A stretch of DNA of 51,700 nucleotides from IMG/VR virus record IMGVR_UViG_3300021963_000175, positions 1-51,700 of that record. The stretch is one strand, 5' to 3'. The position numbers and the translations under genes are program-made. Shown in pieces: positions 6,330 to 43,478 of this stretch (positions are counted from its first letter, which is position 1; every line of letters begins with the position of its first letter). Source of the stretch: a virus. The notes under the pieces are model-generated. The model worked only from the letters and a program-made list of their open reading frames with translations, searched no databases and was not told the DNA's origin.

Positions 6330-6369
6330 AAAAGTGTGGTGGGCCAAATTACTTAATTGACCCACCACT
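6327..6369 (-). terminator. Intrinsic terminator
   Basis: On the minus strand GTGGTGGGTCAA pairs with TTGGCCCACCAC (one G-U pair, arms 58-69 and 37-48 of 6300), followed by ACTTTTTT. The U-run then merges with the next promoter. Confidence 0.85.
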
Positions 6370-6388: not shown

Positions 6389-6643
6389 TTAATTATTTTC
6401 TGTTTTAGATATAGTCCAACTCTCTTTAATTCTACTTTTTCCTAACCTGTCCAGAATCTTTTTCACATCACTCCATGATATTTTCCCATCCATTATATCT
6501 ATTTTACCTACAGTTCTACAAAATGCTTGAAACCTATTTTTATACTCCTCATAGTCATTTAATTGAACTTGATATAAACTTTGATATACTGTGTCATATT
6601 GATTCAGGAATTTAATTACTGTTTTAGTTTGTTGACTCATCAT
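6389..6643 (-). CDS. Unknown 84-residue protein
   Basis: The likely start is the MM pair at 6643/6640 (MMSQQTKTVIKFLNQYDTVY), overlapping the end of the 292-residue gene. The C-terminal half (SWSDVKKILDRLGKSRIKES) contains the KKILD that arises from an in-frame copy of the recurrent 15-nt element at 6451. It is cotranscribed with the 6624-7502 gene. No family is recognised. Confidence 0.65.
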   Translation of the reverse strand: MMSQQTKTVIKFLNQYDTVYQSLYQVQLNDYEEYKNRFQAFCRTVGKIDIMDGKISWSDVKKILDRLGKSRIKESWTISKTENN

Positions 6644-7502
6644 AATACTTAGAAAAATCATTAATTAAATTTGAATCAATAATTCTAACATCTCTAGCAA
6701 TTGGATCATCATTTTCTCTCAAATAACTTTCAATCAACTGATGAACATAAGTAACTTTAGATCTAAATGGTGATATTAGAGGTGTATTTGAGTCAGTACT
6801 ATATGTTGATATAGTATATGTTTTTCCACCTGGATTGAGTTGGAATTTAACCTTACCTCTCAAATACACACTGTCTGATAATTTATAATTAAAATTCAAA
6901 TAATTACTTACAGTGAATCCACTTGATGTTAATTCTTTAGTTCTTTTTTCCAAGTATTGATTCCTAATTTCATTAGCCAAACTAGTATATTTTTTTAGTT
7001 CTTCATCACCAGTTTGTCTAATATTTTTTTCTTTTTCTTCAAGGAAGAAATTTAGTAGTTCTTGATAGAACTGGGATTGGTAATAAATTTGTTCTGCTAT
7101 ATCTAGTTTTAAACGGTTAGTATTTAGGAAAAATTCAATATCATCATTATCATTATTAAACATATCAACTGTAATTCTTTCACTTTCATATGTTAGGTAA
7201 GATACTTGACTTATCTCATTTGTACTAGTATTTGTTACATTCTTTTTATTTAGTTTAATTGTAATTTCTTTATTTGACCAATAACCAGCTTCTTTATCTT
7301 TGGAAAGATATATTCTTTGGTTATGTATGTCATAAACAACATATAATTCTTTAGGTATGTCAAAATTACTTCTAAACACCTCATCCATTTTATCAGTTGT
7401 ACTTTTATTCCAACAAACTAAATCTGTTTTGTTTTGTTCTTCAATTTCAAAAACTTGGAGTTTCAACTCAGCCCACTTCTTAAAATAATCTATCTTTTTC
7501 AT
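6624..7502 (-). CDS. Unknown 292-residue protein of the MoxR-VWA block
   Basis: An N-terminal segment is followed by beta-rich parts (residues about 55-120), a long charged helix with coiled-coil character (about 140-195, EEKEKNIRQTGDEELKKYTS) and a beta-rich C-terminal third containing KFQLNPGGKTYTISTYSTDS. There is no signal peptide or membrane segment. The gene has its own promoter and lies just downstream of three larger genes that include a MoxR-type ATPase and a VWA protein, so it may be an accessory or substrate of that system. No family is recognised. Confidence 0.75.
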   Translation of the reverse strand: MKKIDYFKKWAELKLQVFEIEEQNKTDLVCWNKSTTDKMDEVFRSNFDIPKELYVVYDIHNQRIYLSKDKEAGYWSNKEITIKLNKKNVTNTSTNEISQVSYLTYESERITVDMFNNDNDDIEFFLNTNRLKLDIAEQIYYQSQFYQELLNFFLEEKEKNIRQTGDEELKKYTSLANEIRNQYLEKRTKELTSSGFTVSNYLNFNYKLSDSVYLRGKVKFQLNPGGKTYTISTYSTDSNTPLISPFRSKVTYVHQLIESYLRENDDPIARDVRIIDSNLINDFSKYYDESTN

Positions 7503-7508
7503 CTTTTT

Positions 7509-7531
7509 CTTATTTAATATAATATAATAAA
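7509..7531 (-). promoter_or_regulatory. Phage promoter-like motif, relaxed form
   Basis: The minus strand has TTTTATTATATTATATTAAA before the gene at 7502. It keeps the TTATTATATTA core but not the TAGTATAAG part. Confidence 0.6.
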
Positions 7532-7563
7532 AGAAGGTGGGCTCTCAAAACTCGAGGCCCACC
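7528..7563 (-). terminator. Intrinsic terminator
   Basis: On the minus strand GGTGGGC (57-63) pairs with GCCCACC (36-42), with an inner CTC/GAG helix, followed by TTCTTTTATT. The terminal U-run is shared with the next promoter. Confidence 0.75.
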
Positions 7564-7574
7564 CACAACTATGA

Positions 7575-8660
7575 TTAACTATTCAACTGCAAACTCACCA
7601 CTTTAATATTAGAATTAGTAAAGTACTGTTTATTAATCTCATCAATCATCATTTTATCAATGATTAATTTGATTTCATCAGAACTATTCATATTCATTAA
7701 CTTTGGGATAAGATACTTATAGTTGTCATTTGATATGTCATGAACATGTTTATAACGTTTAATAAAACTGTTTATAGACACAGTATATCTACTCTTATTC
7801 AATCCATGTTTTTGATAATAATGTTTGAATATTAAACTAATAAGTGGTTCATTTCCTTCAGGTACTAAACAATTACTTAGTACTTCCAAACCCATCAAAG
7901 CATTATCTTTATCACCTGATGAAACCATAGATATCAAATTTTCATAAGTATCCAAATCTAAACTAGCATTATCAGCATCAGCTTCCCTAAAAAACTCAGT
8001 CAATAAAATTCCTTTACTATTATCTTTAGTTAGACATTCAATATTCTTGAAAAAATCCTCCCAACGGTCATTAGTTTTGATATGTCTGTTTTCACCCCAA
8101 CCCCAAATTCTATACATTCCTTCAACTTCATAGAATGTTTCAATTTTACAATTACCAAAACCTGAATCAATGGCAGCTAAGTCACTACGTTCTTTTTTTA
8201 CTTTCTCAAAACTATTAGATGAAGAAATAATAACTTCATTACATTGGTATAATGCTTGGGCCTTTTTCACATATTCTTGATCAAATGGTGATTTAGAAAG
8301 ATTACTTGTATTACTGTTAACTAATGAAATTGGAGCAATCAAACAATATATAGGTTTATCACTAAAATCAGTTTGAAACAAACCATCATCAATAATAAAT
8401 TTATCAGCTTCTTCAATTTTACGTACTCGTTTAATTTTCATCTCATCAGTGACAAGTCTCATTTTGTCACGAGTAATTGAACCTTTACTAAACCAAACTT
8501 TATCACATCTTTCTACTTTGTTTGTTTTAGTACCTGCTAATAATGAATTAATTGCTTTTTGATCTTCTAAAGTTACACAACCTTTAAGTTCAACCCAACT
8601 TGAAATTTGAATTCGTGGACCATTAGTGTAGGCAGTTGTTGAAAAATAATTTTTAATCAT
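7575..8660 (-). CDS. Unknown 361-residue protein of the MoxR-VWA block
   Basis: The N-terminal 200 residues look alpha/beta, with strands such as KPIYCLIAPISLV and EVIISSSNSF. The C-terminal 150 residues look like helical repeats (GDKDNALMGLEVLSNCLVPE and FIKRYKHVHDISNDNYKYLI). It is monocistronic, with a promoter 22 nt upstream and a terminator after the stop. It lies between the MoxR-type ATPase gene and the 292-residue gene, so it may be a partner or target adaptor of the ATPase. The family is not recognised. Confidence 0.75.
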   Translation of the reverse strand: MIKNYFSTTAYTNGPRIQISSWVELKGCVTLEDQKAINSLLAGTKTNKVERCDKVWFSKGSITRDKMRLVTDEMKIKRVRKIEEADKFIIDDGLFQTDFSDKPIYCLIAPISLVNSNTSNLSKSPFDQEYVKKAQALYQCNEVIISSSNSFEKVKKERSDLAAIDSGFGNCKIETFYEVEGMYRIWGWGENRHIKTNDRWEDFFKNIECLTKDNSKGILLTEFFREADADNASLDLDTYENLISMVSSGDKDNALMGLEVLSNCLVPEGNEPLISLIFKHYYQKHGLNKSRYTVSINSFIKRYKHVHDISNDNYKYLIPKLMNMNSSDEIKLIIDKMMIDEINKQYFTNSNIKVVSLQLNS

Positions 8661-8681
8661 AGTCTTTTTTTTATCTCTTTT

Positions 8682-8700
8682 ACTCTTATAATATAATAAA
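8682..8700 (-). promoter_or_regulatory. Phage promoter-like motif, relaxed form
   Basis: The minus strand has TTTATTATATTATAAGAGTA upstream of the 361-residue gene. Confidence 0.6.
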
Positions 8701-8725
8701 GAGGGGTTGGTTACCCAAACCCCCC
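8696..8725 (-). terminator. Intrinsic terminator
   Basis: On the minus strand GGGGTTTGG-GTAA-CCAACCCC is followed by TCTTTATT. It ends the MoxR-type gene and abuts the next promoter. Confidence 0.8.
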
Positions 8726-8742
8726 TTTTATCACTTAACTCC

Positions 8743-9912
8743 TTATTTTAGAATATACTTAACCAAATCTTTGTTTAATGCAAGTGTTGAGAACTTTTTC
8801 TGATCAGAACCATAAATTGATTTAACCAAATGGTATTTCAAATCATTGTTCAAAATATCTTCAGTTACAATCTTTCCAATACGATCAATCAATGATTTTT
8901 CAATTTTATTATCTTTGGCAAAATATACTACATTGTTAATCAATCGAGTAGTCAATGTTGAGGCAATATCAGCTCTGTAATTATCACCAGTGCCAACATT
9001 TGATTTGAGTGCTCTAATTGCACTTTCTTCATTTTCATCAAACAACACTTTTCTAACATCAACCAATTTGTCCAATTTATTATTAATAAACATTGAGAAC
9101 ATACTAGCAAATTCAGGACCAACTGAACCTTCTCCAATCATTTGGATCAAACCCAAACTATTTTCAAATGATTCAATACTAGAAATACTATTAAAAAACA
9201 TTACAATACTCCTTGAATTGACTTTCTTAGAAACTAGTTCTGGATGCATCAATAAGAAGTTAATACATCTACTATCAATGTGATTCTCTTCGGCCCAACG
9301 TGCCCAACATTCAACATCAAATCTCAAATCAACTGAAATGAAACGTGTCTTTTGAGCTGCGTCAATACTATTTACAATATAATCATCTGTGTCTGGATTA
9401 CTTGTTAGAATAATATGCCAGTTTTTAGGTAGTGACCAACTAATATATTGTTGTCTATCTACTAGTTCCATTACAGCTTGAATGAACCTCATATCAGCTC
9501 TATTCCAGTCATCCAGAAGTAAAATACCTCCTTCTTCTTTACCAGCGATCCATTCAGGTGGACAATAACTCATCCTATTATTACCTGTTGGTTTAAAACC
9601 ACTTTGGCGAGCATCATCAATGACATTCTCATCTACATACTTTGTTTCTTTTCCATTTGTAACTTCAAATTGACGGATTGGAAAACCAACCAAATCACCT
9701 AATTCTTCAATTTGGGCGAGGTTCAGTTTAACAAAATTCAAATTTGTTTCTTGAGCCAGTTGTAGGATAGAACTTGTTTTACCAATTCCTGATTCACCTA
9801 CTACTTCAATTGCTACTGGTGTTTTACCATGTTCTTGAATGTACTGGTTGTTGTTAATAATGTGGGTTAGAAACCCTTTCAATTCATTTGAGTTAAGTGA
9901 TACTTTTTGCAT
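8743..9912 (-). CDS. MoxR-type AAA+ ATPase
   Basis: The 389-residue protein has a Walker A motif GESGIGKT at residues 39-46, a Walker B segment GGILLLDDWNRAD around 129-141 and the sensor-1-like HIILTSNPDTDDYIV. This arrangement is that of MoxR/RavA-type AAA+ proteins, chaperone-like ATPases that usually work with a von Willebrand factor A protein on metal insertion, complex assembly or remodelling. The gene just upstream encodes such a VWA protein, which supports the pairing. Both genes carry their own promoter and terminator. The protein lacks a signal peptide and should act in the cytoplasm. The substrate is unknown. Confidence 0.85.
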   Translation of the reverse strand: MQKVSLNSNELKGFLTHIINNNQYIQEHGKTPVAIEVVGESGIGKTSSILQLAQETNLNFVKLNLAQIEELGDLVGFPIRQFEVTNGKETKYVDENVIDDARQSGFKPTGNNRMSYCPPEWIAGKEEGGILLLDDWNRADMRFIQAVMELVDRQQYISWSLPKNWHIILTSNPDTDDYIVNSIDAAQKTRFISVDLRFDVECWARWAEENHIDSRCINFLLMHPELVSKKVNSRSIVMFFNSISSIESFENSLGLIQMIGEGSVGPEFASMFSMFINNKLDKLVDVRKVLFDENEESAIRALKSNVGTGDNYRADIASTLTTRLINNVVYFAKDNKIEKSLIDRIGKIVTEDILNNDLKYHLVKSIYGSDQKKFSTLALNKDLVKYILK

Positions 9913-9952
9913 AATCTTTATTTTTATTTATCTTCTTTTTTTTCTCTTTATC

Positions 9953-9970
9953 TTTAATAATATAATAAAC
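9953..9970 (-). promoter_or_regulatory. Phage promoter-like motif, relaxed form
   Basis: The minus strand has TTTATTATATTATTAAAG about 40 nt before the MoxR-type gene. Confidence 0.55.
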
Positions 9971-9977
9971 TCTTTGT

Positions 9978-10013
9978 GTTAAAACAAGGGGAAGTAATTC
10001 TTAAATTACTTCC
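9978..10013 (-). terminator. Intrinsic terminator overlapping a stop codon
   Basis: On the minus strand a perfect 10-bp stem GGAAGTAATT/AATTACTTCC (loop TAAG) is followed by CCTTGTTTTAAC. The upstream arm encodes the last codons of the VWA protein. Confidence 0.8.
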
Positions 10014-11320
10014 ATTTGAACTTGTTTGCCTGGTAATATGTCACCATAACCCCTTCTATTTCTTGTCAATACCCATAACATGTTTTTTCTAGGCTTGACA
10101 CTTGGTGCTGGACACTCCCCATCTGTAAAATAAACCATACAATTATATTTCTGTTGGTTTTTATTAAAATACTCAACAGCTGGAGTGAAATTAGTTCCTC
10201 CACCTCCATAAACAATATTGATGAATTTACCTTTATATTCTTCAACATGGTCCACATCTGCATCACAATGTAACAATGTGATATCAGTTCCTGCTTTATG
10301 AATCAATTTAATTTGAGCCATAAAGTTAGCCATTTCTTCTGTAGATACAGAACCACTTGTATCAATAGCAACCAACATATTTTTCCTAGGTTTGATTTTC
10401 AAAGCTGGGTTACCATTAAATCTGATATTTGGTTTGTGACGTGTCTTTTTAGTTTCGATTTTATTAGAACTACTTACAAAATTCCTTAAATAAGCCTTCC
10501 AATCAATAACTGGTTTAACTTCTTTAAATAGTTCTTCAAGCATTTGTTGTAAAGCAGCTGGTAAATTTCCTCTACTATTACTTCCTTTACGATCCAATTG
10601 AGTCACTACTTCTTTTAATTGATGTTCAATTTGGTTCTTAATAATTTTCTTATCTGCTTCACTTAGTTCTGATATTTCTTTCCATGTACCATGGTCATCA
10701 ATCATTCCATCTGTAAAGTCACTATCACCTTCCATCATACCTTTTAGTTTCTGTTGTGACTCATTCAATCCAGATCCACTATTACCATTTCCATTTCCAC
10801 CATTTCCATCAATTTCTCCTCCATCACCTTCATTATCCCCACTACTATTTCCACCATTACTTGGTCCATTACTATTTCCATTTTGACCTGATGGATTCAT
10901 ATTTTTATATTCCTTCATCAATGTGTCATAATATTCTTTAGTACCAGCTTTTTCAGGTAAGTTAAAATCAGGAAATGATGAAGGTAACAATGCTCCTTCT
11001 GGTAAGTGTTTTTCATCAATGTATTGATTAATTTCAATATCAGCAGCTATATTAACCATTCGTTGATTTTCATAATGGTCATAATTGTACAGGTGATGAA
11101 ATGCTATATGAAGCAATTCATGTTTCAACAAACCATATTGATGGTCATAACTTAGACTATTATAAAAGTCAGGATTGAATTCCAAATTCAAATTATACCC
11201 TGCTTTTCTAACACAAGCTGTATCAATATTCTTATTTTCTAATTTGTTCAGTTGTAATAACATCAAACCATAAAATGGTTCTTTTAACATCAATTCTTTT
11301 GTAACTTTTGAAATATCCAT
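10001..11320 (-). CDS. VWA domain protein with N-terminal metallopeptidase-like domain
   Basis: The 439-residue protein starts with a putative zinc metallopeptidase domain of the DUF2201 type: HELLH at residues 67-71, followed by a VNIAADIEINQYI helix that supplies further ligands in that family. A Gly/Asn/Ser-rich linker occupies about residues 143-190. The C-terminal third is a von Willebrand A domain with the MIDAS motif DTSGS (near residue 318), a later Thr in GGGGTNFTP and the Asp of YFTDGEC. This fusion is the usual partner of MoxR-type ATPases, which here is the next gene. The pair probably remodels or processes a protein complex in the cytoplasm; the target is unknown. Confidence 0.85.
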   Translation of the reverse strand: MDISKVTKELMLKEPFYGLMLLQLNKLENKNIDTACVRKAGYNLNLEFNPDFYNSLSYDHQYGLLKHELLHIAFHHLYNYDHYENQRMVNIAADIEINQYIDEKHLPEGALLPSSFPDFNLPEKAGTKEYYDTLMKEYKNMNPSGQNGNSNGPSNGGNSSGDNEGDGGEIDGNGGNGNGNSGSGLNESQQKLKGMMEGDSDFTDGMIDDHGTWKEISELSEADKKIIKNQIEHQLKEVVTQLDRKGSNSRGNLPAALQQMLEELFKEVKPVIDWKAYLRNFVSSSNKIETKKTRHKPNIRFNGNPALKIKPRKNMLVAIDTSGSVSTEEMANFMAQIKLIHKAGTDITLLHCDADVDHVEEYKGKFINIVYGGGGTNFTPAVEYFNKNQQKYNCMVYFTDGECPAPSVKPRKNMLWVLTRNRRGYGDILPGKQVQMEVI

Positions 11321-11333: not shown

Positions 11334-11354
11334 TATTTAATATAATATAATAAA
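11334..11354 (-). promoter_or_regulatory. Phage promoter-like motif, relaxed form
   Basis: The minus strand has TTTATTATATTATATTAAA before the VWA gene, the same variant as at 7509. Confidence 0.6.
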
Positions 11355-14404: not shown

Positions 14405-14636
14405 TGTTACCTCCTTCTTGATATTGTTCCCCTTTTTGTTCTATTGCATCTAAGACTCTAAACAAAGGAACTAATATTGTTCCATTGGTGTATACTTCTT
14501 GACTATCCTTAAAACTATAATCAATAATAAAGTCTATAATTTTGAGATGTTCTTCATCTGTAATGTATTTCAATCTACTACTTATAGATAAATCATTTTT
14601 GATTTCTTCTTTCATACTTTGTTTATTGTTGCTCAT
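14364..14636 (-). CDS. Small protein with MSNNKQ start
   Basis: The 90-residue product starts MSNNKQSMKEEIKNDLSISS and has a helical centre. Its C-terminus (EGGNNEQHQTTNGSKTN) is the ribosome site and start of the next gene read in another frame, so the tail probably arose by read-through into a duplicated start cassette. GGAGGTAAC stands before the start. No family is recognised. Confidence 0.7.
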   Translation of the reverse strand: MSNNKQSMKEEIKNDLSISSRLKYITDEEHLKIIDFIIDYSFKDSQEVYTNGTILVPLFRVLDAIEQKGEQYQEGGNNEQHQTTNGSKTN

Positions 14637-15052
14637 TTGTTACCTCCTTGTATTTTGTTGATTATTTTATAAACTTCATGACTTTCATTTTCAGCCCAAG
14701 TAATTATTTCCTCTTCCAAATCTATGTTATAATTGTGTAATGCAAATGATTGATGCATTAATTCATGCATTATTAATCCAAAAGTGCTAAGTGAATCAGT
14801 ACATCTTGAAAGATTAATAAATACAAACCTTGGATCATCATCTATATACTCACCAGATTCTTTAGGTATAAAATTAGATAATCCTGCTACATAAGCATCT
14901 TCTGTTGTGTTTTTATAAGCAGTACAATCTATGGCATTAAGACCATGCATTTCTTCTACATTATAATAAGTAAATAAATCACAAGGATTAGAACTTAATA
15001 GAAGCGTGTAAGTCTCTCTATTTATTTTTTCAATTTGTTTATTATTGCTCAT
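14633..15052 (-). CDS. Gluzincin-like zinc protease domain protein
   Basis: The start at 15052 (MSNNKQIEKINRETYTLLLS) is preferred over 15064 because it matches the other MSNNKQ genes. The 139-residue product has HELMH at about residues 99-103, preceded by a helix, and then DLEEEIITWAE, where a downstream Glu could be the third zinc ligand. This looks like a minimal zinc metallopeptidase; the metalloprotease role is inferred from the motif. No signal peptide is present. Confidence 0.7.
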   Translation of the reverse strand: MSNNKQIEKINRETYTLLLSSNPCDLFTYYNVEEMHGLNAIDCTAYKNTTEDAYVAGLSNFIPKESGEYIDDDPRFVFINLSRCTDSLSTFGLIMHELMHQSFALHNYNIDLEEEIITWAENESHEVYKIINKIQGGNK

Positions 15053-15053
15053 A

Positions 15054-15329
15054 CTAACTTCCAAATGTTGGTCTGCTGATATCTATCCATACTTTACACA
15101 CAATAAGATTTAGTCCAATCATATAAGCTCTAACATGATTATCTTTACTAAATACTTCTTTAATACTACCTTTCTTTTTACCAACGGCCTCATATGTTTT
15201 TACCCATATTCCTAAGTTGAATGTGTTTCGCATTTGAAACTTTTCAAAATTTTCCATACCTCCTTCTTCCCATCTGTGACGGAGTACAAGATTAATATGA
15301 AACCATTTGTTTCTAATCTTACTTATCAT
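15054..15329 (-). CDS. Unknown 91-residue protein
   Basis: The product is basic and aromatic-rich, with a beta-like C-terminal half (HVRAYMIGLNLIVCKVWIDI). An internal Met at residue 25 follows a GGAGG-like sequence (GAAGAAGGAGGTATGG) and could be the true start. No family is recognised. Confidence 0.6.
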   Translation of the reverse strand: MISKIRNKWFHINLVLRHRWEEGGMENFEKFQMRNTFNLGIWVKTYEAVGKKKGSIKEVFSKDNHVRAYMIGLNLIVCKVWIDISRPTFGS

Positions 15330-21266: not shown

Positions 21267-21289
21267 GAAAGAAAGAAATAAAAAGTTTG

Positions 21290-21375
21290 TACTGCTGGCC
21301 GGGATCGAACCGGCACGAACCTTACGGCTCACAGGATTTTAAGTCCTGCGCGTCTACCTGTTCCGCCACAACAGC
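21290..21375 (-). tRNA. tRNA-Leu (TAA)
   Basis: The 86-nt sequence folds as a class II tRNA. It has acceptor GCTGTTG/CAGCAGT with two G-U pairs, D-stem GCG/CGC, anticodon stem CAGGA/TCCTG with loop CTTAAAA, a long variable arm and a T arm GCCGG-TTCGATC-CCGGC. The anticodon TAA reads UUA, a codon heavily used in this AT-rich genome. The CCA end is not encoded. It is the only class II tRNA outside the main array, apart from Ser. Confidence 0.95.
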
Positions 21376-27081: not shown

Positions 27082-27389
27082 AACTCTAATTCTTTAATTA
27101 ATTTAACTATTTCAGAACATTGTTCATAACGTTCATCTTTTTTATAATACTCAATACATTGGTTTAATGCTTTTTTCCAATCTGATTTATTAATTTCTAC
27201 TTGATATTCTGAATATGCTACTTTAAATAAAATAGCTGTTTTTGATCTATTTATAGCAGCGTCTCTAATAGCTTCAACAGTTTCAGAATATACTAAACTA
27301 ATAAAATTATTACTTTTTAATAATAAGTCATGGTCAAGACCTTTACCAACAAAAGCTATATTGAGTGTGAAAGGTTGTCTTACAATCAT
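27078..27389 (-). CDS. Small protein paralogous to 24573-24881
   Basis: The 103-residue product has an N-terminal beta-like stretch and shares the C-terminal LNQCIEYYKKDERYEQCSEI pattern with the gene at 24573. It overlaps the first GT2 gene by four bases. The shared fold could be a small helical effector family; function unknown. Confidence 0.7.
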   Translation of the reverse strand: MIVRQPFTLNIAFVGKGLDHDLLLKSNNFISLVYSETVEAIRDAAINRSKTAILFKVAYSEYQVEINKSDWKKALNQCIEYYKKDERYEQCSEIVKLIKELEL

Positions 27390-28459
27390 GATATCTCATT
27401 TTTTATAAATATTAAATCTTTAGATATGTCATTAATATTTTTTATTTCAACTTTAATATTACCTAATTCAAATTCACCAGTATCATTTGTTTCTTGAATG
27501 ATTTTATTTAATTGAGTTATAACTTTAAAATCATTTTGATTTATCTGTTTTAAATCTAAATTAATAATAATATCATAATCATCTATATTTTTTGGATTAA
27601 TATCCCCTAAAAATTCTTCACCATTAAAAGGAATATAATTACTAACTATTGAACATTTTTTATAAACAGGAGTTAAAATAGGATGACCATACAAATCGTT
27701 TTCTATCCAACTACCCCATTTCTTAATATAGTATTTTCTTGCTTTTTCTTCAGCTATTTTAAAATAATCATCATTAACTCCTATTTTTTCATTCCATCTA
27801 TGACCACGACATGTTAAGTGATAAACAAAAGCATCTCTAGATTGAATCAATTCATATCCTGCTAATATCCACCTTTGAAAAATATCTGAGTCTTCATATG
27901 GAAATGGGGCAAAATTCCAGTCATGACCTCCAATTGCTAAAAAATCTTTTTTATAAAGTAACCATGGTGCAAACATTCCTTTAGTAGTTTTATCAGGAAA
28001 TTGACTTTGTAATTTTTGACAATGCAATTCAAAATCAGCTATATTTAATGAATCAAAGTCCATTCCAAAGTCCATAACTATTTTTTCATTACCTGGAGGA
28101 TGCAATGGTGGTTCTATTCTAGTACCACATACTACAGTTCCGGGTTTTAAATGTTTTAACATATTTTCTATGTAGTTAGGACCAAGTATCATATCAGCAT
28201 GAATAATACCTACAATATCATACATGGTGAAATCTATACCTTTATCATATAATATAGTATGACCTACTCTTTCATTAGATTTAAATATTCTTAATTTATT
28301 ATCTGAGTTATATATTGTTTGCATCCAATCCCAAGTACCATCATTACTAGCATCATCATACATAATAATTTCTACATTTGGAGCATGTTTTTTAATACTA
28401 TAATAAGCATTTTTTAAATGTCTAAGGTTATTATGAGATGGTATAATTAAGGAAATCAT
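27386..28459 (-). CDS. GT2 glycosyltransferase (tandem copy A)
   Basis: The 357-residue protein opens with the GT-A beginning MISLIIPSHNNLRHLKNAYY, followed by the nucleotide-binding EIIMYDDASNDGTWDW, and shows the DxD-like IIHADMILGPNY near residue 90. GTRIEPPLHPPGNEKIV is shared with the next gene. The C-terminal 100 residues form an extension ending in EFELGNIKVEIKNI. GT2 enzymes transfer sugars from nucleotide donors to glycans or proteins. The two genes look like a tandem duplication. The acceptor is unknown. Confidence 0.85.
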   Translation of the reverse strand: MISLIIPSHNNLRHLKNAYYSIKKHAPNVEIIMYDDASNDGTWDWMQTIYNSDNKLRIFKSNERVGHTILYDKGIDFTMYDIVGIIHADMILGPNYIENMLKHLKPGTVVCGTRIEPPLHPPGNEKIVMDFGMDFDSLNIADFELHCQKLQSQFPDKTTKGMFAPWLLYKKDFLAIGGHDWNFAPFPYEDSDIFQRWILAGYELIQSRDAFVYHLTCRGHRWNEKIGVNDDYFKIAEEKARKYYIKKWGSWIENDLYGHPILTPVYKKCSIVSNYIPFNGEEFLGDINPKNIDDYDIIINLDLKQINQNDFKVITQLNKIIQETNDTGEFELGNIKVEIKNINDISKDLIFIKNEIS

Positions 28460-29592
28460 ATTAACTTTAATTTTGGATTTTTTACTTCTATTTTGTTTAC
28501 TTTTATTTTTATAGTACCAAATTCATACTCACTATCTTCTTCCACTTGGTCTATAATATCTTCTATATTTTTAATAATATAGTTAAGATTTTGTATATCT
28601 CCTAGCTTATTATCAAATTCTATAACAACATCATTATTTAATTCATTTACAAATTTAGAATGTAAATCAAATTTAGATATAGGTTGAAATGTTTCTATAT
28701 AAGGAATAACATTGCAATCAACTATTAAATTATTAAAATATGGTTCTAAAGATACTAAACTAGTATCACAATTAATTATTTTAATACCAACGTCATATTT
28801 TTTATTAGGTTTAGGTTCACAAGGTCCATATTCTTGAAATACACCACCCCATTTTCTAATATATTCTAATAATGAAATTTGATTTTTTAATTGCCAATCT
28901 TGTGATTTATTATTTAAGTCTTTAGTTTCTTTAGCATGTTCAAATTGCCCTCCTCTACAAGTTAAATGATAAACTAAACTAGACCATACTTGTATAGTAT
29001 CATAACCAGCTAATTTAAATCTTCTAAATAAATCAGCATCTTCAAATACTGATAAGAAAATAGGATCATGACCTAAATGATCATTCCTATTTATTAACCA
29101 AGGAGCAAAAGATGATTTAGTTAATTTATTTTCATTTTCTTTAGATGTTTTAACTACAAATTGATTAAACTCATCCCATTTAATTTCTTCAGGCCATAAA
29201 CCAAAGTCCTGTACTATTTTTTCAGGTCCAGGAGGGTGTAATGGTGGTTCTATTCTAGTACTACATACAACTGATTGAGGTTTATAATGTTCAATTAAAT
29301 ACTTATCAGCATCAACACCTAATATCATATCAGCATGAAATGCTACTACTAAATCAAATTTAGCTTCTTTAAACATTAAATCATAAGCGTAACCAATTCC
29401 TTTACATTCTGATTCTGAGTTTAGAATATAACGGATTTTGTTTTCTTCTAACCATTCAACTGTACCATCATTATCTTGGTCTACAAATACTAATATCTCA
29501 TTTGTTGTATAATGAGAGTTTATCTCAATAGAAGGTATACATGTTTTTAAATACCTTAAATTGTTTTTACTGGGTATACAAAATGTTATCAT
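28456..29592 (-). CDS. GT2 glycosyltransferase (tandem copy B)
   Basis: The 378-residue protein begins MITFCIPSKNNLRYLKTCIP, has a VDQDNDGTVEWL donor motif and VVAFHADMILGVDADKYLIE with the DxD-like acid, then STRIEPPLHPPGPEKIV. Its C-terminus (SEYEFGTIKIKVNKIEV) matches the last part of copy A. The distinctive PPLHPPG segment and shared tail indicate one ancestral gene. It overlaps copy A by four bases. Confidence 0.85.
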   Translation of the reverse strand: MITFCIPSKNNLRYLKTCIPSIEINSHYTTNEILVFVDQDNDGTVEWLEENKIRYILNSESECKGIGYAYDLMFKEAKFDLVVAFHADMILGVDADKYLIEHYKPQSVVCSTRIEPPLHPPGPEKIVQDFGLWPEEIKWDEFNQFVVKTSKENENKLTKSSFAPWLINRNDHLGHDPIFLSVFEDADLFRRFKLAGYDTIQVWSSLVYHLTCRGGQFEHAKETKDLNNKSQDWQLKNQISLLEYIRKWGGVFQEYGPCEPKPNKKYDVGIKIINCDTSLVSLEPYFNNLIVDCNVIPYIETFQPISKFDLHSKFVNELNNDVVIEFDNKLGDIQNLNYIIKNIEDIIDQVEEDSEYEFGTIKIKVNKIEVKNPKLKLI

Positions 29593-30449
29593 TTGAATAA
29601 ATGTTTATATTTTTCCTTATTATTTTTTATATATTGAGGTAAGTTATCTTCATTAAGAGTTAACTTATAATTTCGTCCATGAAAATAAGAACTTATAACT
29701 TCAATATTATTTTTTAATTTATTTTCTATATCATTTTTAACAACATCATTATTAAATTCTTGATGTCCATAAGATTCTATTTTTAATTTAATCATGTCAG
29801 GACCACCCATGAAAGTAAAATGCCAACCACCATTATCAATATATTTGTATGGAGTTCTAGCTGGGTTACGTAAATGATTAGTACTAGAGTTTTTAATATT
29901 TTTATATTTTGTTAATGTTACTCCAGCCCATGGTTCATTTGATTCAAGGTTCATATATCCACTATATACTATTTGTCTAAGTTTATACACAGTAGAGTCT
30001 TCTAAACTATAATTTAATTCTGGGTTCCATATTTCATCTAAATCACTAATAAAGCAAATGTCATCATCATTTAATCCTTGTAATGGTATTCTAATACATT
30101 CTTTTTGATAAAATTCTTTTAACCAATGTAATTCTCCTGGAGGTACATTAGTAGTAGTTAAAGCATGATGAATAATATTTTCTTCTAGTTTAGTAATATT
30201 TGGTTTATTTAGTCTAGATCTTAGTTCAGGCCAGCTAATTACAGGGTCTTGAATAACATAATGAATAATTTTATGTTCCCATTCTTTAAATCTATCTTTA
30301 TTTTCTTGGTAAAATAAAGGTTTTGGATTTCCTGAGAATGTTTCTATACATTCAATTATTACAAATTTATCTACTTTGTCATTTAACATTTGGAGTCTGA
30401 TTTCTAATAAATCTAACTCATTAAAAAAGGTGAAAATATCGTATACCAT
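29589..30449 (-). CDS. GT17-like glycosyltransferase
   Basis: The 286-residue protein starts MVYDIFTFFNELDLLEIRLQ and continues with MLNDKVDKFVIIECIETFSG, the N-terminal signature of the GT17 family (N-acetylglucosaminyltransferase type), plus FISDLDEIWNPE and GGWHFTFMGG. GT17 proteins are common in phage and bacterial glycan clusters. The donor and acceptor cannot be deduced. It overlaps the GT2 copy B by four bases and touches the next gene at a TAATG. Confidence 0.8.
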   Translation of the reverse strand: MVYDIFTFFNELDLLEIRLQMLNDKVDKFVIIECIETFSGNPKPLFYQENKDRFKEWEHKIIHYVIQDPVISWPELRSRLNKPNITKLEENIIHHALTTTNVPPGELHWLKEFYQKECIRIPLQGLNDDDICFISDLDEIWNPELNYSLEDSTVYKLRQIVYSGYMNLESNEPWAGVTLTKYKNIKNSSTNHLRNPARTPYKYIDNGGWHFTFMGGPDMIKLKIESYGHQEFNNDVVKNDIENKLKNNIEVISSYFHGRNYKLTLNEDNLPQYIKNNKEKYKHLFK

Positions 30450-31351
30450 TATTTATTATAAATTTGAGGATTGTTTGACATATATAACTGTAAATCTCTT
30501 TTACATTCATCATAAGAAAATAAAATACCATCACGATCTTGATAGAACCAGTCTTCATATAAGTTATAATTACAAGTCCAATAACCATTAGAAACATTAT
30601 GTCTACCCCAATATTTAGGCGCTATAACCATTCTAGCATTTCCTGTAACTGTTGGCCATATAGCGAAACTTGAATTTGATAATATTAAATACTTAGCATT
30701 TTTTATTACTGAATAGTCTCTACCAACATCAAAATGAAAAATATTATCAGACAATTCAGGTAATACTCTTTTAGCTTCATCTGGGTTCTCTGTAATTACA
30801 ACAAAAGTAAAATCTGGGTTGATTTTTAACATATTGTATATAGCTTGAACCCAATAATTTCTTGTTAAGTACATAGCTTGACAATCTGGTCCAGAATAGT
30901 CTCTATAGTTTAACACACAAATATCATCACTTGAAAAATCATAAACTTCAAATTCTGGTTTTACCTTAAGCCAGTTTTTTAAGTCATTTTTTCTATGACG
31001 AAAATAACCTTCACCCTGCATAACACCATCAATTTTTGTATTATCAGTAATGTTTATAAGATTATAATCTATATCTCTAACATCACACCCTAAAACTCTA
31101 TCATGTTGACTAGCATTTGTTTTTAATCTTAATTCTTTTTCAACATAATGATTTGTAATTCCTTGAACTGGTTTTCCAAGATCAAGGTCCATAAAATATA
31201 ACCCATGATCATTAAATCTTCTATCTCCTAAATTTTCTAATCCAGTAAAACCAAAATCATATCCTTTATCAGCAGCTATAACTCTTGTAGTTACATAACA
31301 TGCTAATTGGTTTCCTAAACCCTGGCCATAATAAAACTCTGTAGCTATCAT
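30449..31351 (-). CDS. GT11-like fucosyltransferase family protein (first copy)
   Basis: The 300-residue protein begins MIATEFYYGQGLGNQLACYV, matching the GLGNQ motif of GT11 alpha-1,2-fucosyltransferases, and later has YLILSNSSFAIWPTVTGNAR and VIAPKYWGRH, the NSSFSWWA-type C-terminal block. The HxRxGD motif typical of GT11 is not clearly visible, so it may use another donor. It lies in the middle of the glycosyltransferase operon. Confidence 0.7.
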   Translation of the reverse strand: MIATEFYYGQGLGNQLACYVTTRVIAADKGYDFGFTGLENLGDRRFNDHGLYFMDLDLGKPVQGITNHYVEKELRLKTNASQHDRVLGCDVRDIDYNLINITDNTKIDGVMQGEGYFRHRKNDLKNWLKVKPEFEVYDFSSDDICVLNYRDYSGPDCQAMYLTRNYWVQAIYNMLKINPDFTFVVITENPDEAKRVLPELSDNIFHFDVGRDYSVIKNAKYLILSNSSFAIWPTVTGNARMVIAPKYWGRHNVSNGYWTCNYNLYEDWFYQDRDGILFSYDECKRDLQLYMSNNPQIYNK

Positions 31352-31357
31352 ATATTT

Positions 31358-31969
31358 TTATTTTATTTTTTCTAGTAAACATCTGCCTTCTAAATCTTCT
31401 ATACATCTTATAGTATGTTTAGGAAGGTATTTTTTAATATATTCTTTAGTTGGGATATTATAATAATCATGAAATTCTACTTCAATCCATTTTACTGTTT
31501 TCAAAAATGTAGAATTTTCAATTACATTATATTCTCCCCCTTCTATATCTAATTTAATAAGATCAACTTTAGGAAATTTTAATTCTTCTAAAGTAGCCAC
31601 TTCAACTTCTATACCAGGTATACTTGAGTCAGGTACTAATCTAAATCCACCAATATTATCATCAACAGAATATATTTTTGGACTAACTAAATTATAACCA
31701 ATTGCTTTTTGAAAAAATAATACTTTTTGTTTTTTAACATTATTTTGCAAAAATATAAAATTATCTTCTTGTGGTTCAATAAGATAAGCTTTTTTAAGTG
31801 TATCTATTTTTTCAAAAAGTACATTACAAAACTCTCCAACATTAGCACCTATATCTATATAAGATTTAATTTTATCTTGTTTTAAAATTTCTATTACATC
31901 CTTATAATACTGATAGGTTTCTAATTCTGATCTAGTATATAACATGTGTGATTCTCTACTTGATGGCAT
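31358..31969 (-). CDS. FkbM-family methyltransferase
   Basis: The 203-residue protein has the SAM-binding YIDIGANVGEFCNVLF near residue 37, the acidic loop AYLIEPQEDN, and the FkbM signature VDLIKLDIEGGEYNVIE near residue 145. FkbM enzymes O-methylate small molecules or sugars. Within this cluster it probably methylates a glycan. It starts one base before the upstream stop. Confidence 0.9.
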   Translation of the reverse strand: MPSSRESHMLYTRSELETYQYYKDVIEILKQDKIKSYIDIGANVGEFCNVLFEKIDTLKKAYLIEPQEDNFIFLQNNVKKQKVLFFQKAIGYNLVSPKIYSVDDNIGGFRLVPDSSIPGIEVEVATLEELKFPKVDLIKLDIEGGEYNVIENSTFLKTVKWIEVEFHDYYNIPTKEYIKKYLPKHTIRCIEDLEGRCLLEKIK

Positions 31970-31970
31970 T

Positions 31971-32660
31971 TTAATTGTATTTTTTATTTATATATTCAAA
32001 TTCATTATTTTTAACTTGTTGAGTAGCAATTGTGTTACTCACTTGATTGTTATGTTCTCTATTCACAACTGTAATAAAATTACAAATTGATGGTAAACCA
32101 AATTTATCATATAAACGTTTATAGTATTCTACATCCATGAGCCAAAATAAATTTTCATCAAACAAAATTAAATCATCTTTATACATCATTAAAACACTTG
32201 GTGAGCTAATAGTATTTTCACCATAATGAATGTTATCATGATATTTTGGATAAAATGGATTATATAATTTTAAATCATCTTTAGAGTGACAACAAGCTGT
32301 AACTAACCAATGATTATGATTACCCGCTAAATGTACTAACATAGTTTCAAGACTTTTATTATCATAAAGAAAATCATCTTGAAATAATATTTTTATAACA
32401 TCACCTGATGATTGTTTCATAGCAGTATTGATGTTACATGAAGAAACACCTCTACCATAATCATTATAAAAATGTTTTATATCAAATTTAGATTGATATT
32501 TTTTACAAACATTTTCAATTAATGGAGTAGTACTATGATCAGATATTATAACTTCAAAATTTTGGTAAGTTTGTTTTTCCAATACTGATAATGAATGGTC
32601 TAGATAATTAGCTCCAAAACCTTTCATCTCATATGTTGGTATACAAATACTAACTTTCAT
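31971..32660 (-). CDS. GT2 glycosyltransferase
   Basis: The 229-residue protein starts MKVSICIPTYEMKGFGANYL and has the FEVIISDHSTTPLIEN donor loop and VIKILFQDDFLYD with the expected acidic motif near residue 93. It is a compact catalytic domain without a membrane segment. It likely adds one sugar in the same pathway as its neighbours. Confidence 0.85.
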   Translation of the reverse strand: MKVSICIPTYEMKGFGANYLDHSLSVLEKQTYQNFEVIISDHSTTPLIENVCKKYQSKFDIKHFYNDYGRGVSSCNINTAMKQSSGDVIKILFQDDFLYDNKSLETMLVHLAGNHNHWLVTACCHSKDDLKLYNPFYPKYHDNIHYGENTISSPSVLMMYKDDLILFDENLFWLMDVEYYKRLYDKFGLPSICNFITVVNREHNNQVSNTIATQQVKNNEFEYINKKYN

Positions 32661-32662
32661 TT

Positions 32663-33175
32663 TTATTTTCTAGCAAACCATACTCCCATTTGAGGAGCAT
32701 GTACAAAACCAAATTTCCCTTCAGCTACAATATTAAATCCCCACTCTTTTATTTTATTCATAATATTTTCTCTAATATCTTCAGTGTGATATTCAATAGC
32801 TAACTCAGTAATGGATTCCATATCCTCATTATTTAAATTATATAAAACTGTTTCATAAGCTTCAATATCACATTTTAAAGCTGTAGCTTGGATTTCATTT
32901 AAAAGACTTTTAACTGTATCAGTATTATCAATAAACATAGCTCTAGCTTCTAAATTTTCTATGTTTAAATCATTAAAATAATCTACTTCTGATTGTCTAG
33001 TATCAATAGCTAATACTTTTAAAGCTCCTTGTTGTAAAAAATAAGTTGGACTATGATGTTCAACTTGGTGTGTATCATGTCTACCACATCCTAAATCTAA
33101 TACTACTTTTCCTTTAGGATGAAAATGTAACCAATGATGTTCTGAATTTTCTGAGGCAATACTGTGTTGTTCCAT
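32663..33175 (-). CDS. SAM-dependent methyltransferase, FkbM-like
   Basis: The 170-residue product has VVLDLGCGRHDTHQ near residue 25 and ATALKCDIEAYETVLYNL near residue 97, which corresponds to the FkbM DIEGxE signature. The protein is shorter than typical FkbM enzymes and has a His-rich N-terminus. It could methylate a sugar added by the nearby transferases. It lies two bases after the preceding stop. Confidence 0.75.
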   Translation of the reverse strand: MEQHSIASENSEHHWLHFHPKGKVVLDLGCGRHDTHQVEHHSPTYFLQQGALKVLAIDTRQSEVDYFNDLNIENLEARAMFIDNTDTVKSLLNEIQATALKCDIEAYETVLYNLNNEDMESITELAIEYHTEDIRENIMNKIKEWGFNIVAEGKFGFVHAPQMGVWFARK

Positions 33176-33182
33176 TTTATTT

Positions 33183-33932
33183 TTAAATTAGTTTTGATAA
33201 ATCTGTTTTCATGTTTTCTGTAACTTCATAATTACACATCCAAATAGTATATAAAGCTCTTTCAATTAAATGACTTTCTCCAGATAATTGAGTATGTTCA
33301 ACAAATAATCTTAAATTTTTATAAAAAACTTTATCATATTTGTATATATGTTCTTTTGGTACTACAAAATTTCCACCTGGAGGAAATCTAACATATTTTG
33401 GTAATACTGGATCTGTAAAACAGTATAACATAAAGTCATTATATGTTTGAAAGTATTTAATTGGATGTTTTGGATTGTTTAAATACCAACTATTATTTAT
33501 TTCTAACCACCCACCATCACTAGAGAACATAGCTATTCCTGCTTGTAAACTTGGTTGATTTGGATCATGAGCTTTCCAATCTTCAATAGGGGTAAAACAT
33601 TTTAATTTAACTAATTGTCTAAACTTTTCTTCAGATACATGTCTAGGAAAAGTATTACCTTTACAAAATACAATTATGTTAGGTAAATCATCATAATGAT
33701 CAATAATGTAAGTTAGATAATCATATATGTTATAACCATTTATTGAAGATTTAACAATGTTATAATTAGGATATTTTTTATAAAGATCTACAACTTCAAA
33801 AGGATAAGAAGCATTTTCTAATAAACTAGCGTCCCAAGTTTTATCATATATAATATGATTAGGATAATCTTTAACCCAATCTAAATTATTATTATAATTT
33901 GATATACAAAAAAAGTTTAAATCACTATCCAT
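33183..33932 (-). CDS. DUF3431-like protein
   Basis: The 249-residue product matches the order expected for DUF3431, a family in fungal and bacterial glycan clusters: GYNIYDYLTYIIDHYDDLPN, IIVFCKGNTFPRH, then FPPGGNFVVPKEHIY and SHLIERALYTIWM. DUF3431 is thought to be glycosyltransferase-like, but no activity is established to my knowledge. Its start overlaps the next fucosyltransferase-like gene by 16 bases. Confidence 0.7.
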   Translation of the reverse strand: MDSDLNFFCISNYNNNLDWVKDYPNHIIYDKTWDASLLENASYPFEVVDLYKKYPNYNIVKSSINGYNIYDYLTYIIDHYDDLPNIIVFCKGNTFPRHVSEEKFRQLVKLKCFTPIEDWKAHDPNQPSLQAGIAMFSSDGGWLEINNSWYLNNPKHPIKYFQTYNDFMLYCFTDPVLPKYVRFPPGGNFVVPKEHIYKYDKVFYKNLRLFVEHTQLSGESHLIERALYTIWMCNYEVTENMKTDLSKLI

Positions 33933-34750
33933 TCTTTACAATATAAATCATTAGTATCATGAAAATAATAGGCTGGTCCAAACCATTGTTTAGGTGCTAC
34001 AACTAACTTATTTTTATTTTTATTTAGATAAGCAGCCCACCAACTAAATGAACTATTTGCTATTATATTATGATTGCACATTGACATTAAACACATATCA
34101 ATATACGGATCAACATTATTAATATAATGAATATTTTCTTGTTCTCCAAATAATTCTTTACAATAATTTACATCATCAGAAAAAATGATAAAATGATATT
34201 CTTTATCACTAAATAATTTAATAGCATTTGAATAATATTCTGGGGAGCATATTGGATGGAAATTTTCTAATCCTTTATAATCACCTATTCTTAAATGTAT
34301 AGATACAGTTTCTGTAGTTAATTTAGGAAATAATTTATTAGCCTCACTTTGTATATCTAGTTTGAAAGTAAATAATTCTAGTATTTCTTCTTTAACATGT
34401 TCAAAATATTTTTCTGTTTGATAATATCCTTTTAAATCAGCATTATCAGGTATAGAAAAAAATTGTTCATTAAAATGAAAATGAGGTTCTTGAACTTCAT
34501 ATTCAAGACTTGGGAATATATTTTCTTTAGGTCTTAATATATCTTTTTTTAAAGTAAAAACTTTAGGTAAATCAAAAGTACAATATCTTGTTACTCCATC
34601 TTTAAATTCTTCATATTGTCCCTCAATCATATTCTCCATAGGAAAAGTAACATCATAATTTAGTTTTCTAGCTATACCATATGTCCCAGCAAATTGAAAC
34701 ATTTGGTTTCCTAATCTACCAAAAAGTCCTATTTTACTGTATGTTATCAT
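33917..34750 (-). CDS. GT11 alpha-1,2-fucosyltransferase-like protein
   Basis: The 277-residue protein begins MITYSKIGLFGRLGNQMFQF with the GT11 GxLGNQMF motif. It has VSIHLRIGDYKG near residue 150, the HxRxGDY donor motif of inverting GT11 fucosyltransferases, and NSSFSWWAAYL at the C-terminal end. All three motifs are present, so it should transfer L-fucose (or a related sugar) from GDP-fucose. No GDP-fucose synthesis genes are in the window, so the host must supply donor. Confidence 0.85.
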   Translation of the reverse strand: MITYSKIGLFGRLGNQMFQFAGTYGIARKLNYDVTFPMENMIEGQYEEFKDGVTRYCTFDLPKVFTLKKDILRPKENIFPSLEYEVQEPHFHFNEQFFSIPDNADLKGYYQTEKYFEHVKEEILELFTFKLDIQSEANKLFPKLTTETVSIHLRIGDYKGLENFHPICSPEYYSNAIKLFSDKEYHFIIFSDDVNYCKELFGEQENIHYINNVDPYIDMCLMSMCNHNIIANSSFSWWAAYLNKNKNKLVVAPKQWFGPAYYFHDTNDLYCKEWIVI

Positions 34751-35402
34751 ACAAATTATTTTGTTTCTCTTGTTTCTCTATAGTTTTTATATGCTTTAAA
34801 GCTACTATTTCATTATCAGGAAGTGGAGCTAAAGACTTATAACCAATTAATACTTCATGTACTTTATTTTTCCATTGTATTTCAGGAATATTTTTACAAA
34901 TTCTAAACTGATAATCAGGGAAATTTATCCAACCTTTTTCATTTACTCTCCATCCCCATTTATCAATATGTTGTTGAGTTAAACCCTCAACTATATTAAC
35001 TCTAGGTACTAACATAACTTCTACTTTATCTTGATTTAATTCAATAATTTCTCTAATTAAATGAATTTGATCTTGACTAATTTCCTCATCAGCATCTAAA
35101 AAGAAAATCCAATCTTTTGAACAACGTTTTTTAATACTATTTTTAAAAGTAGCAAAGTCTCCATTTAAATCACTAAATACTTTTATTGCTGGGATTATTA
35201 TTTTTCTTCGTCTAGATATTACTGGGTTATAGAATCCTTCAAAATCAGATATTATTTTTAAAACTTTATCTGTTGTATTACTACTATCAACTTGAATTAT
35301 TATTTCATCATTTTCAATAGTACAAGTTTCTAATTGTTTTAATAATCTACTTAATTCATATGCTTCATCACATACAGTAATAGCAAAACTAATATTAATC
35401 AT
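34734..35402 (-). CDS. GT2 glycosyltransferase (WaaE-like)
   Basis: The 222-residue protein begins MINISFAITVCDEAYELSRL, has DEIIIQVDSSNTTDKVL and KDWIFFLDADEEISQDQ with the DxD-like motif. The later WRVNEKGWINFPDYQFRICK and WKNKVHEVLIGY match the WaaE branch of GT2, which acts in lipopolysaccharide core glycosylation. It overlaps the fucosyltransferase gene by 17 bases. Confidence 0.85.
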   Translation of the reverse strand: MINISFAITVCDEAYELSRLLKQLETCTIENDEIIIQVDSSNTTDKVLKIISDFEGFYNPVISRRRKIIIPAIKVFSDLNGDFATFKNSIKKRCSKDWIFFLDADEEISQDQIHLIREIIELNQDKVEVMLVPRVNIVEGLTQQHIDKWGWRVNEKGWINFPDYQFRICKNIPEIQWKNKVHEVLIGYKSLAPLPDNEIVALKHIKTIEKQEKQNNLYDNIQ

Positions 35403-35405
35403 AAT

Positions 35406-35849
35406 TTAATTATCAAATAACCCTAAATAATCACAAGCACTAATAAAGTCATTTTCAAAATGTTTCATAGTAGATGGATCTGATTTATATTTAGCTCCTT
35501 TATTAATAGCTTCTTTTTGTTCTTCTTTACTAAGTTTTCTAACTTTAATAACTGACCATTTCCAATCATCTTTACTAGTACCATTAATAAATACTGTTCC
35601 TTTATCATGCATATTAAATGTCATAGGATACCAAATTCTTTTTTCTTTATCAATATGTTTAATATCTTTATACAATTCAGGCATTGTTAACTCATACTCA
35701 AAAGGATCAAATTCACCCTCAATCATAAGGTCATTAGTATGAAAACCACAACCCATACAATTATATGAATTTTTAGTCTCATTAATAGGTAATGAGTAAC
35801 AAGCATCTGATCCACATTTGGGACATACTATTAAATCATCTTTTATCAT
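35406..35849 (-). CDS. Zinc-ribbon protein in the glycosyltransferase operon
   Basis: The 147-residue protein has CPKC near residue 9 and CMGC near residue 32, a four-Cys zinc ribbon, followed by a charged alpha/beta part with a C-terminal helix. It overlaps the GT4 gene by four bases. Nucleic-acid binding is possible; a role in glycan synthesis is not evident. No closer family is recognised. Confidence 0.7.
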   Translation of the reverse strand: MIKDDLIVCPKCGSDACYSLPINETKNSYNCMGCGFHTNDLMIEGEFDPFEYELTMPELYKDIKHIDKEKRIWYPMTFNMHDKGTVFINGTSKDDWKWSVIKVRKLSKEEQKEAINKGAKYKSDPSTMKHFENDFISACDYLGLFDN

Positions 35850-37165: not shown

Positions 37166-37166
37166 A

Positions 37167-42197: not shown

Positions 42198-42214
42198 ATA
42201 AACCTTTATTTTAG

Positions 42215-42288
42215 TGGACCCTGTAGGGTTTGAACCTACGACCCCCAGATTATGAGTCTGACGCTCTGACCAACTGAGCTAAGGGTCC
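42215..42288 (-). tRNA. tRNA with CAT anticodon (Met or Ile2)
   Basis: The 74-nt sequence has acceptor GGACCCT/AGGGTCC, D-arm AGCTCAGTTGGTCAGAGC, anticodon stem TCAGA/TCTGG with loop CTCATAA, and T arm GTAGG-TTCAAAC-CCTAC. The anticodon CAT could be elongator Met or Ile2, which is lysidine-modified and reads AUA; the GGACCCTTAGCTCAG start resembles Ile2. AUA would be useful in an AT-rich genome. CCA is not encoded. Confidence 0.9.
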
Positions 42289-42498
42289 ATAAATCAAATA
42301 AGGAAAAATTAAATTTTCACTGAAAAGGTTTAAGATTTAAGTTTTCCAATTTTAAGCTTTCACGTTTAAATTTTAAGGCGAGCTATCAAAATCAAAATCT
42401 TAGTATCATGTTCATGAAGTAAAGCGATATGTGGTCGCCATTGTCCTAAATTAAAAATTTAATCTAGGTGCTACTAGCTTAATCTTCCCTTTATTTGA
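42289..42498 (-). other. Non-coding gap of about 210 nt
   Basis: No convincing gene is seen; the longest frame starts MATTYRFTS and stops at once. The minus strand has GGCGA and TCGCC arms about 60 nt apart and a ATGAACAT hairpin between, so a structured RNA or processing spacer is possible. It lies upstream of the tRNA with CAT anticodon, and this spacer might feed tRNA processing. Confidence 0.4.
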
Positions 42499-42927
42499 TT
42501 ATATCTTTGTTAAAGCATTAAATGCTTCAATTTCTTCTTGAAGGGCGTCAATTTTTTCTTCCCAATTACTTATTACTTGATCTTTTTGAATTTGATCCAT
42601 CCAACATGAATATTCACTTTTTTCTTCACTATAGCCTCTTCTAAATAATCCTTTTTTAGTATCAACTTTTTTCATACGTGAAACTAAATTTTTAAGTTCT
42701 CCTAGTTCAAAAATTTTATGAGCAATTGGTTGGTTAGCAATTTGAATTTTAGTTTTCAAATTAACTAATTCTTGAGTAGTTGATAACCAACTATTATACA
42801 TTATTTGTGGATCATATGTTTGTTCTTGATCTGTTTCAAATGAGTTACTATTAGAAAAACGAGAGTAAAACTCATCAGCTTTTTTAATTAACTTTTTCTT
42901 TTGTTTGAGTGCTTTTGTCAAATTCAT
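42499..42927 (-). CDS. Coiled-coil protein, unknown
   Basis: The 142-residue product is helical and charged, with KALKQKKKLIKKADEFYSRF at the start and a C-terminal coiled coil (EEKIDALQEEIEAFNALTKI). No membrane segment is present. It follows a promoter and precedes the tRNA-bearing spacer. No family is recognised. Confidence 0.7.
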   Translation of the reverse strand: MNLTKALKQKKKLIKKADEFYSRFSNSNSFETDQEQTYDPQIMYNSWLSTTQELVNLKTKIQIANQPIAHKIFELGELKNLVSRMKKVDTKKGLFRRGYSEEKSEYSCWMDQIQKDQVISNWEEKIDALQEEIEAFNALTKI

Positions 42928-42932
42928 ATTTT

Positions 42933-42961
42933 TTCTTTTATAACAATATTAATATAATAAA
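42933..42961 (-). promoter_or_regulatory. Phage promoter-like motif, relaxed form
   Basis: The minus strand has TTTATTATATTAATATTGTT before the gene at 42927. Confidence 0.5.
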
Positions 42962-43017
42962 TCTTTTTTAGAGAGCCAAATTTTTTAAAAAAATAGTAGA
43001 TATTCTTTAACAGTTAA

Positions 43018-43472: not shown

Positions 43473-43478
43473 AATTTG

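Follow-up and report, generated by a model that had tools for sequence, protein, structure and literature searches.

The locus considered here raises the question of what a phage does with a MoxR-type AAA+ motor encoded next to a VWA protein bearing a zinc-protease site, and of which among the genes transcribed along with them belong to the same system. The MoxR–vWA-metallopeptidase pair as such is already known from jumbo phages (PMC7824862) and from N4, as gp24/gp25 (PMC2784036). It is found here on the virus contig IMGVR_UViG_3300021963_000175, the whole stretch analysed, 51.7 kb in length, being referred to as the window. Judging from its sequence, the source phage is T4-like; the window encodes a clamp loader of T4 type as well as an exonuclease of the SbcCD type, and a T4-type gp23 capsid gene is present in 7 of the 12 relatives searched. 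This T4-like contig also carries a glycosyltransferase-like gene run (27386-38603; phrog_841, phrog_2170), seven clustered tRNA genes (Met, Arg, Glu, Gln, Ser, Met and Thr; 42214-44379) and an eighth tRNA gene (Leu; 21289-21375). As developed below, comparison with relatives shows that MoxR, the VWA/zinc-metallopeptidase and a third protein, U361, form a conserved genetic unit in which the motor, zinc and metal-binding residues are intact.

All the ORFs initially called in the block were confirmed on the minus strand with their coordinates unchanged, the order of transcription being a 151-aa gene, the VWA/metallopeptidase gene, MoxR, U361, the 292-aa ORF and an overlapping 90-aa ORF (Table 1). 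The claim that each unit has its own promoter and terminator is right in substance, as hairpins lie 3' of the VWA, MoxR, U361 and 90-aa genes and a 13-base promoter-like element, TTATTATATTATA, is located 28-56 bases 5' of the block unit starts, often right behind a hairpin; the 292-aa and 90-aa ORFs, which overlap by 38 bases, are therefore taken as sharing one unit. At no more than one mismatch, TTATTATATTATA occurs at 19 sites, all on the minus strand, where shuffling expects 2.1; these sites span positions 385-44616 of the window and are concentrated at 0-18 kb. Generic sigma-70 sites are not enriched in the window (34 found vs. 35 expected), and most relatives use elements other than TTATTATATTATA.

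Table 1. Coordinates of the genes, promoter-like elements and hairpins of the block, numbered from the first base of the window.
Feature	Position	Strand	Basis
Promoter-like element TTATTATATTATA before the VWA gene	11341..11353	-	
VWA protein with N-terminal zinc-metallopeptidase domain (DUF2201_N + DUF2201), 439 aa	10001..11320	-	Pfam, PHROG, invariant residues
Terminator-like hairpin, end of the VWA gene	9990..10013	-	
Promoter-like element before the MoxR gene, 1 mismatch to TTATTATATTATA	9956..9968	-	
MoxR-like AAA+ ATPase, 389 aa	8743..9912	-	AAA_5, phrog_1297, relatives
GC-rich hairpin, MoxR–U361 interval, running into the next promoter-like element	8697..8726	-	
Promoter-like element before the U361 gene	8687..8699	-	
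U361, third partner, 361 aa; as a lead only, N-terminal part predicted BRCT-like and C-terminal half, which contains the S-x-D-x-x-N module, helical and HEAT-like	7575..8660	-	Alignments, profile, linkage, AlphaFold
S-x-D-x-x-N helical module within U361; in relatives, small proteins carry a single copy of it as well	7824..7970	-	
GC-rich hairpin, U361–292-aa ORF interval	7530..7566	-	
Promoter-like element before the 292-aa ORF	7518..7530	-	
292-aa orphan ORF, a transcriptional neighbour of the triad without shared conservation	6624..7502	-	No relatives (collections given in the text)
90-aa ORF, overlaps the 3' end of the 292-aa ORF; no conservation with the triad	6389..6661	-	
GC-rich hairpin 3' of the 90-aa ORF	6334..6369	-	

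The original prediction of a MoxR-type AAA+ ATPase adjoining a VWA protein with an N-terminal HELLH motif was borne out by Pfam, PHROG and invariant residues. In Pfam, the VWA protein is assigned to DUF2201_N (E 7.7e-26), a family of putative metallopeptidases, and to DUF2201, which is VWA-like (E 4.3e-16); in PHROG, it matches phrog_1314 (E 5.9e-66). Its zinc site HELLH (residues 67-71) and a later NxAxDxEINQ segment, along with the MIDAS residues D320-T-S322-G-S324, T376 and D400, are essentially invariant across relatives. A weak SprT-like match (E 0.032) remained below the cut-off, and the DUF2201 VWA-like domain stops at residue 422 of 439, with no C-terminal effector domain behind it. 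PHROG 1314 and the RefSeq names in many phage records label this VWA-metallopeptidase family 'HNH endonuclease', which is unsupported, the Pfam matches being to metallopeptidase and VWA domains. Elsewhere in the window, a 143-aa ORF (14633-15064) exhibits a HELMH zinc-site motif without a family match. Some relatives have a nucleotidyltransferase-like gene overlapping or abutting the VWA gene (L013:10691-11416 and 20 relatives, alignment A2); its product, which bears the motif GGSLAL...RxPDxDF...D (GGS...DxD...D) and gave one weak AbiEii match, is possibly an effector. No such gene was found in the window.

As for MoxR, it matches Pfam AAA_5 above the cut-off and phrog_1297 (E 5.6e-38). Viral contigs contain 362 relatives of it; for the best 80, identity is 65-70% along almost all of the protein. 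Between the window and the same relatives, identity reaches only 47-58% for the clamp loader, itself part of the replication core, which indicates that MoxR is under unusually strong constraint. Regarding solved structures, a likeness was found for MoxR only, to midasin and distant, and none for the other parts. In bacterial genomes, the search with MoxR returned a single contig, 115 kb long and phage-like, from the bin of a Pseudomonadales MAG.

The third gene of the unit emerged from linkage. Among the best 80 of the 362 MoxR loci, taking only those with at least 3 kb of flank on each side, both VWA and U361 are present in 42 of 44 viral contigs, and conversely both MoxR and VWA accompany U361 in all 26 contigs selected by the latter, these counts being of related sequences rather than of independent events. 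The genes come in different orders among the best 80 loci (MoxR-U361-VWA, U361-VWA-MoxR and VWA-x-MoxR-U361), with triad neighbours frequently 1-25 bases apart and the MoxR–U361 gap amounting to 1-15 bases in 23 of 37 adjacent pairs. The U361 relatives beside MoxR are 340-390 aa long, and the profile of the family recovers the window protein with an E-value of 1.4e-61. Median pairwise identity in relatives declines from 76% for MoxR to 60% for VWA and 26% for U361; the identities of the three proteins nonetheless co-vary among relatives, which fits joint descent. Searching the viral contigs with the VWA protein or U361 alone found nothing, an outcome attributed to the faster divergence of both. 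U361 of the window has no family in Pfam, PHROG, NCBIfam or PADLOC, and no recurring Pfam family, VMAP-type or other recognised domain appears across its family. By sequence, it was found neither in cultured phages nor in bacterial genomes, and it is undetectable beside the MoxR–VWA genes of N4-like, AR9, cyanophage and Moorella phages, so that U361 is not universal to such pairs. The third genes located beside the pair in the Moorella phage, AR9, S-TIM5, phiFa, phage G and AD45 were likewise compared by profile and none proved to be a U361 relative.

The linkage thus stands for one of the two large unassigned genes, U361, but not for the other. The 292-aa protein has no relative in the viral contigs, in 50,697 phage records or in the whole records of 14 relatives, and nothing matches it in Pfam, PHROG, NCBIfam or PADLOC; neither it nor the 90-aa protein belongs to a shared cluster near MoxR among the best 80 of the 362 loci. 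Profile comparison also spoke against its being a divergent U361 (E 0.2) or a nucleotidyltransferase (E 0.38). On this distribution, the 292-aa gene lies outside the MoxR–VWA–U361 system, and the supposed block of four or five genes comes down to a triad with the 292-aa and 90-aa genes as passengers.

AlphaFold models of the U361 family (mean pLDDT 77 and 82) depict an alpha/beta N-terminal part followed by a helical C-terminal half. In the former, a strand-helix-strand-strand-helix order surrounds the conserved 'IPRxKLKxFI...KKTSR..ADxIIxNK', a topology that would fit a BRCT-like domain, and the C-terminal half may be HEAT-like. In the PDB fold search, BRCT entries and HEAT/ARM-type repeats were listed, none of them significant, the best BRCT match having a probability of 0.47 and an E-value of about 0.7-2; Pfam BRCT is matched by 2 of 53 family members. 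The BRCT/HEAT reading is consequently offered as a lead only. Within the C-terminal half, a module with the consensus 'LDxExYxxLxxMxxSxDxxNIxLxxExLxN' recurs in free-standing proteins of about 80-165 aa, which mostly adjoin MoxR in relatives, some being 10-75 kb away from it (examples with a single module are L008:9612-9947, L075:18-383 and L006:8485-8805). Across very divergent U361 members, invariant and near-invariant residues persist (alignments A1/A4).

The reach of the family goes beyond the closest relatives. The BFVD fold search with U361 gave four relatives with E-values below 1e-6, from an uncultured Caudovirales phage, a crAss-like virus and, for two of the proteins, one podovirus. 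VWA-MoxR genes with U361 relatives are also encoded on two contigs, L142 and L141 (profile E 2e-22 and 7.6e-29, respectively), both of which we infer to be crAss-like; L142 bears in addition a second, weakly similar U361-like gene, and L141, an IMG/VR contig, has a gene order resembling that of L142. The latter (WLWP01000004.1) is the phage-like 115-kb contig of the Pseudomonadales MAG; it carries a replication module and is likely a mis-binned phage. Taken with the BFVD matches, these triads suggest that the U361 family crosses tailed-phage lineages.

Regarding expression, the triad is set apart from the genes building the particle. A second element, ATATTTAT, lies upstream of 24 of 44 capsid-region genes vs. 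none of 16 triad genes in six relatives (p 6e-5), and the four genomes not used for motif discovery give 13 of 28 vs. none of 10 (p 0.008). Over all relatives, it precedes 119 of 415 other genes of the same loci vs. none of 110 triad genes, with a nominal p of 1e-14 that ignores relatedness. In the gp23 regions of relatives, ATATTTAT precedes the portal gene as well. Where triad genes have an upstream region to themselves, most genomes show a common AT-rich element in front of them that is distinct from ATATTTAT. The ATPase–VWA pair of Bacillus phage AR9 has an annotated early promoter immediately 5' of it; dRNA-Seq in this phage confirmed 33 of 34 predicted early promoters, g057 being the sole failure, and its virion genes belong to the late class in 41 of 43 cases (PMC5312081).

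From this separation between the switching on of the triad and that of the particle-building genes, the complex probably dismantles protein complexes rather than contributing to virion building. We give an even chance to the triad being a remodelling protease of early or middle infection with U361 as its specificity part. In such a machine, U361 would carry or recognise the target via its fast-evolving, putatively BRCT-like N-terminal part and would dock on the motor through the helical S-x-D-x-x-N module; the VWA domain would hand the target to the MoxR ring, which would pull it apart with ATP, and the zinc site would cut it. Active early or midway in infection, the machine would have as its target protein complexes where phage DNA is replicated, or else a complex of the host, rather than the virion. 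A more specific and improbable version has U361 direct motor and protease to proteins that are jammed on phage DNA or form assemblies there.

The virion component suggested at the outset as a target corresponds to a published proposal for jumbo phages, made by analogy with Acidianus two-tailed virus, in which the pair would serve virion assembly (PMC7824862), possibly as a chaperone-cochaperone folding or trimming structural proteins during assembly or maturation. Besides this proposal, one relative, G005, has a portal gene within 10 kb of the triad (about 5-9 kb), but the capsid gene is located more than 60 kb from the triad on the contigs of three others (G001, G002 and G003). The neighbours are of replication type in several phage lineages, the pair adjoining exonuclease V and DNA polymerase in the N4-like Presley, preceding one unknown gene and then an SNF2 helicase in the Moorella phage, and VWA-MoxR-U361 lying on L142 between DnaB-type helicase/primase/RusA and a PD-(D/E)XK nuclease. 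Together with the ATATTTAT counts and the early promoter of AR9, this disfavours the virion as target, makes an assembly role unlikely and speaks for the early/middle remodelling protease.

Host takeover or counter-defence is a sub-case of the early/middle remodelling protease, U361 then being a rapidly changing adaptor that would bring proteins of the host, or defence complexes, to the motor-protease. It would agree with U361 diverging fastest in the triad, with the TTATTATATTATA-type element that the window triad has in common with the region of many small ORFs (1-18 kb), and with the nucleotidyltransferase-like gene linked to VWA in some relatives. Counter-defence genes are however usually patchy, whereas U361 is present in nearly every relative at a stable size and MoxR itself is unusually conserved; moreover, PADLOC yields nothing beyond a weak similarity between the P-loop of MoxR and DolB (E 2e-4 across 40 residues), so that this search brought no defence link for the defence complex once proposed as a target. 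The takeover sub-case is accordingly held as possible but doubtful. Fast divergence and the free-standing copies of its module would also suit U361 being a mere substrate or inhibitor of the pair, e.g. silencing the protease, with the single-module proteins as further substrates; the invariant residues and the compact two-part predicted fold suggest instead a working rather than a disposable protein, and we regard this option as very unlikely.

Several known systems invite comparison with the triad as a remodelling protease. RavA–ViaA and CbbQ–CbbO are cellular MoxR–VWA pairs, where a MoxR ring with a VWA adaptor remodels a specific complex, and the phage system is alike in ring and adaptor; to our knowledge, they have neither a metallopeptidase domain nor a U361-like third partner. 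In Cdc48/p97 with SPRTN/Wss1, an AAA+ motor works with a HExxH protease on DNA-bound proteins; the pairing of motor and protease motif is alike here, and the VWA protein has the weak SprT-like match below the cut-off, MoxR belonging however to a different AAA+ family. The jumbo/N4 pair (PHROG 1297 and 1314) has in common with the triad both families, their adjacency and the N-terminal metallopeptidase fused to VWA; what differs here is the constant U361, the single-module relatives near MoxR and sometimes the nucleotidyltransferase-like gene, as well as evidence favouring early/middle expression over the virion assembly proposed for jumbo phages. The bacterial MoxR–vWA ternary conflict systems, of VMAP, iSTAND and FtsH types (PMC7159879), resemble the triad in their three-part logic, with MoxR evolving slowest and the other parts faster. 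They differ in their fixed order, third gene-MoxR-vWA, where the phage triad shows at least three orders; the triad is moreover viral, with the metallopeptidase ahead of VWA, no effector domain behind it and no VMAP-type match for U361. In the literature searched, no description was found of the conserved third gene U361 and its promoter class, which are thus considered new.

For MoxR–VWA pairs, present in hundreds of phage genomes, a single guess as to function has been published, virion assembly. Cultured phages with the pair are at hand in AR9, N4 and its relatives, U361 being known to date from uncultured phages only. Should U361 indeed lead the motor-protease to proteins on phage DNA, the triad would be a phage machine clearing nucleoprotein roadblocks in replication, functionally like Cdc48 with SPRTN. 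More broadly, a constant third partner provides a handle on the specificity of MoxR–VWA, and the promoter evidence predicts for the triad an early/middle role related to replication or takeover.
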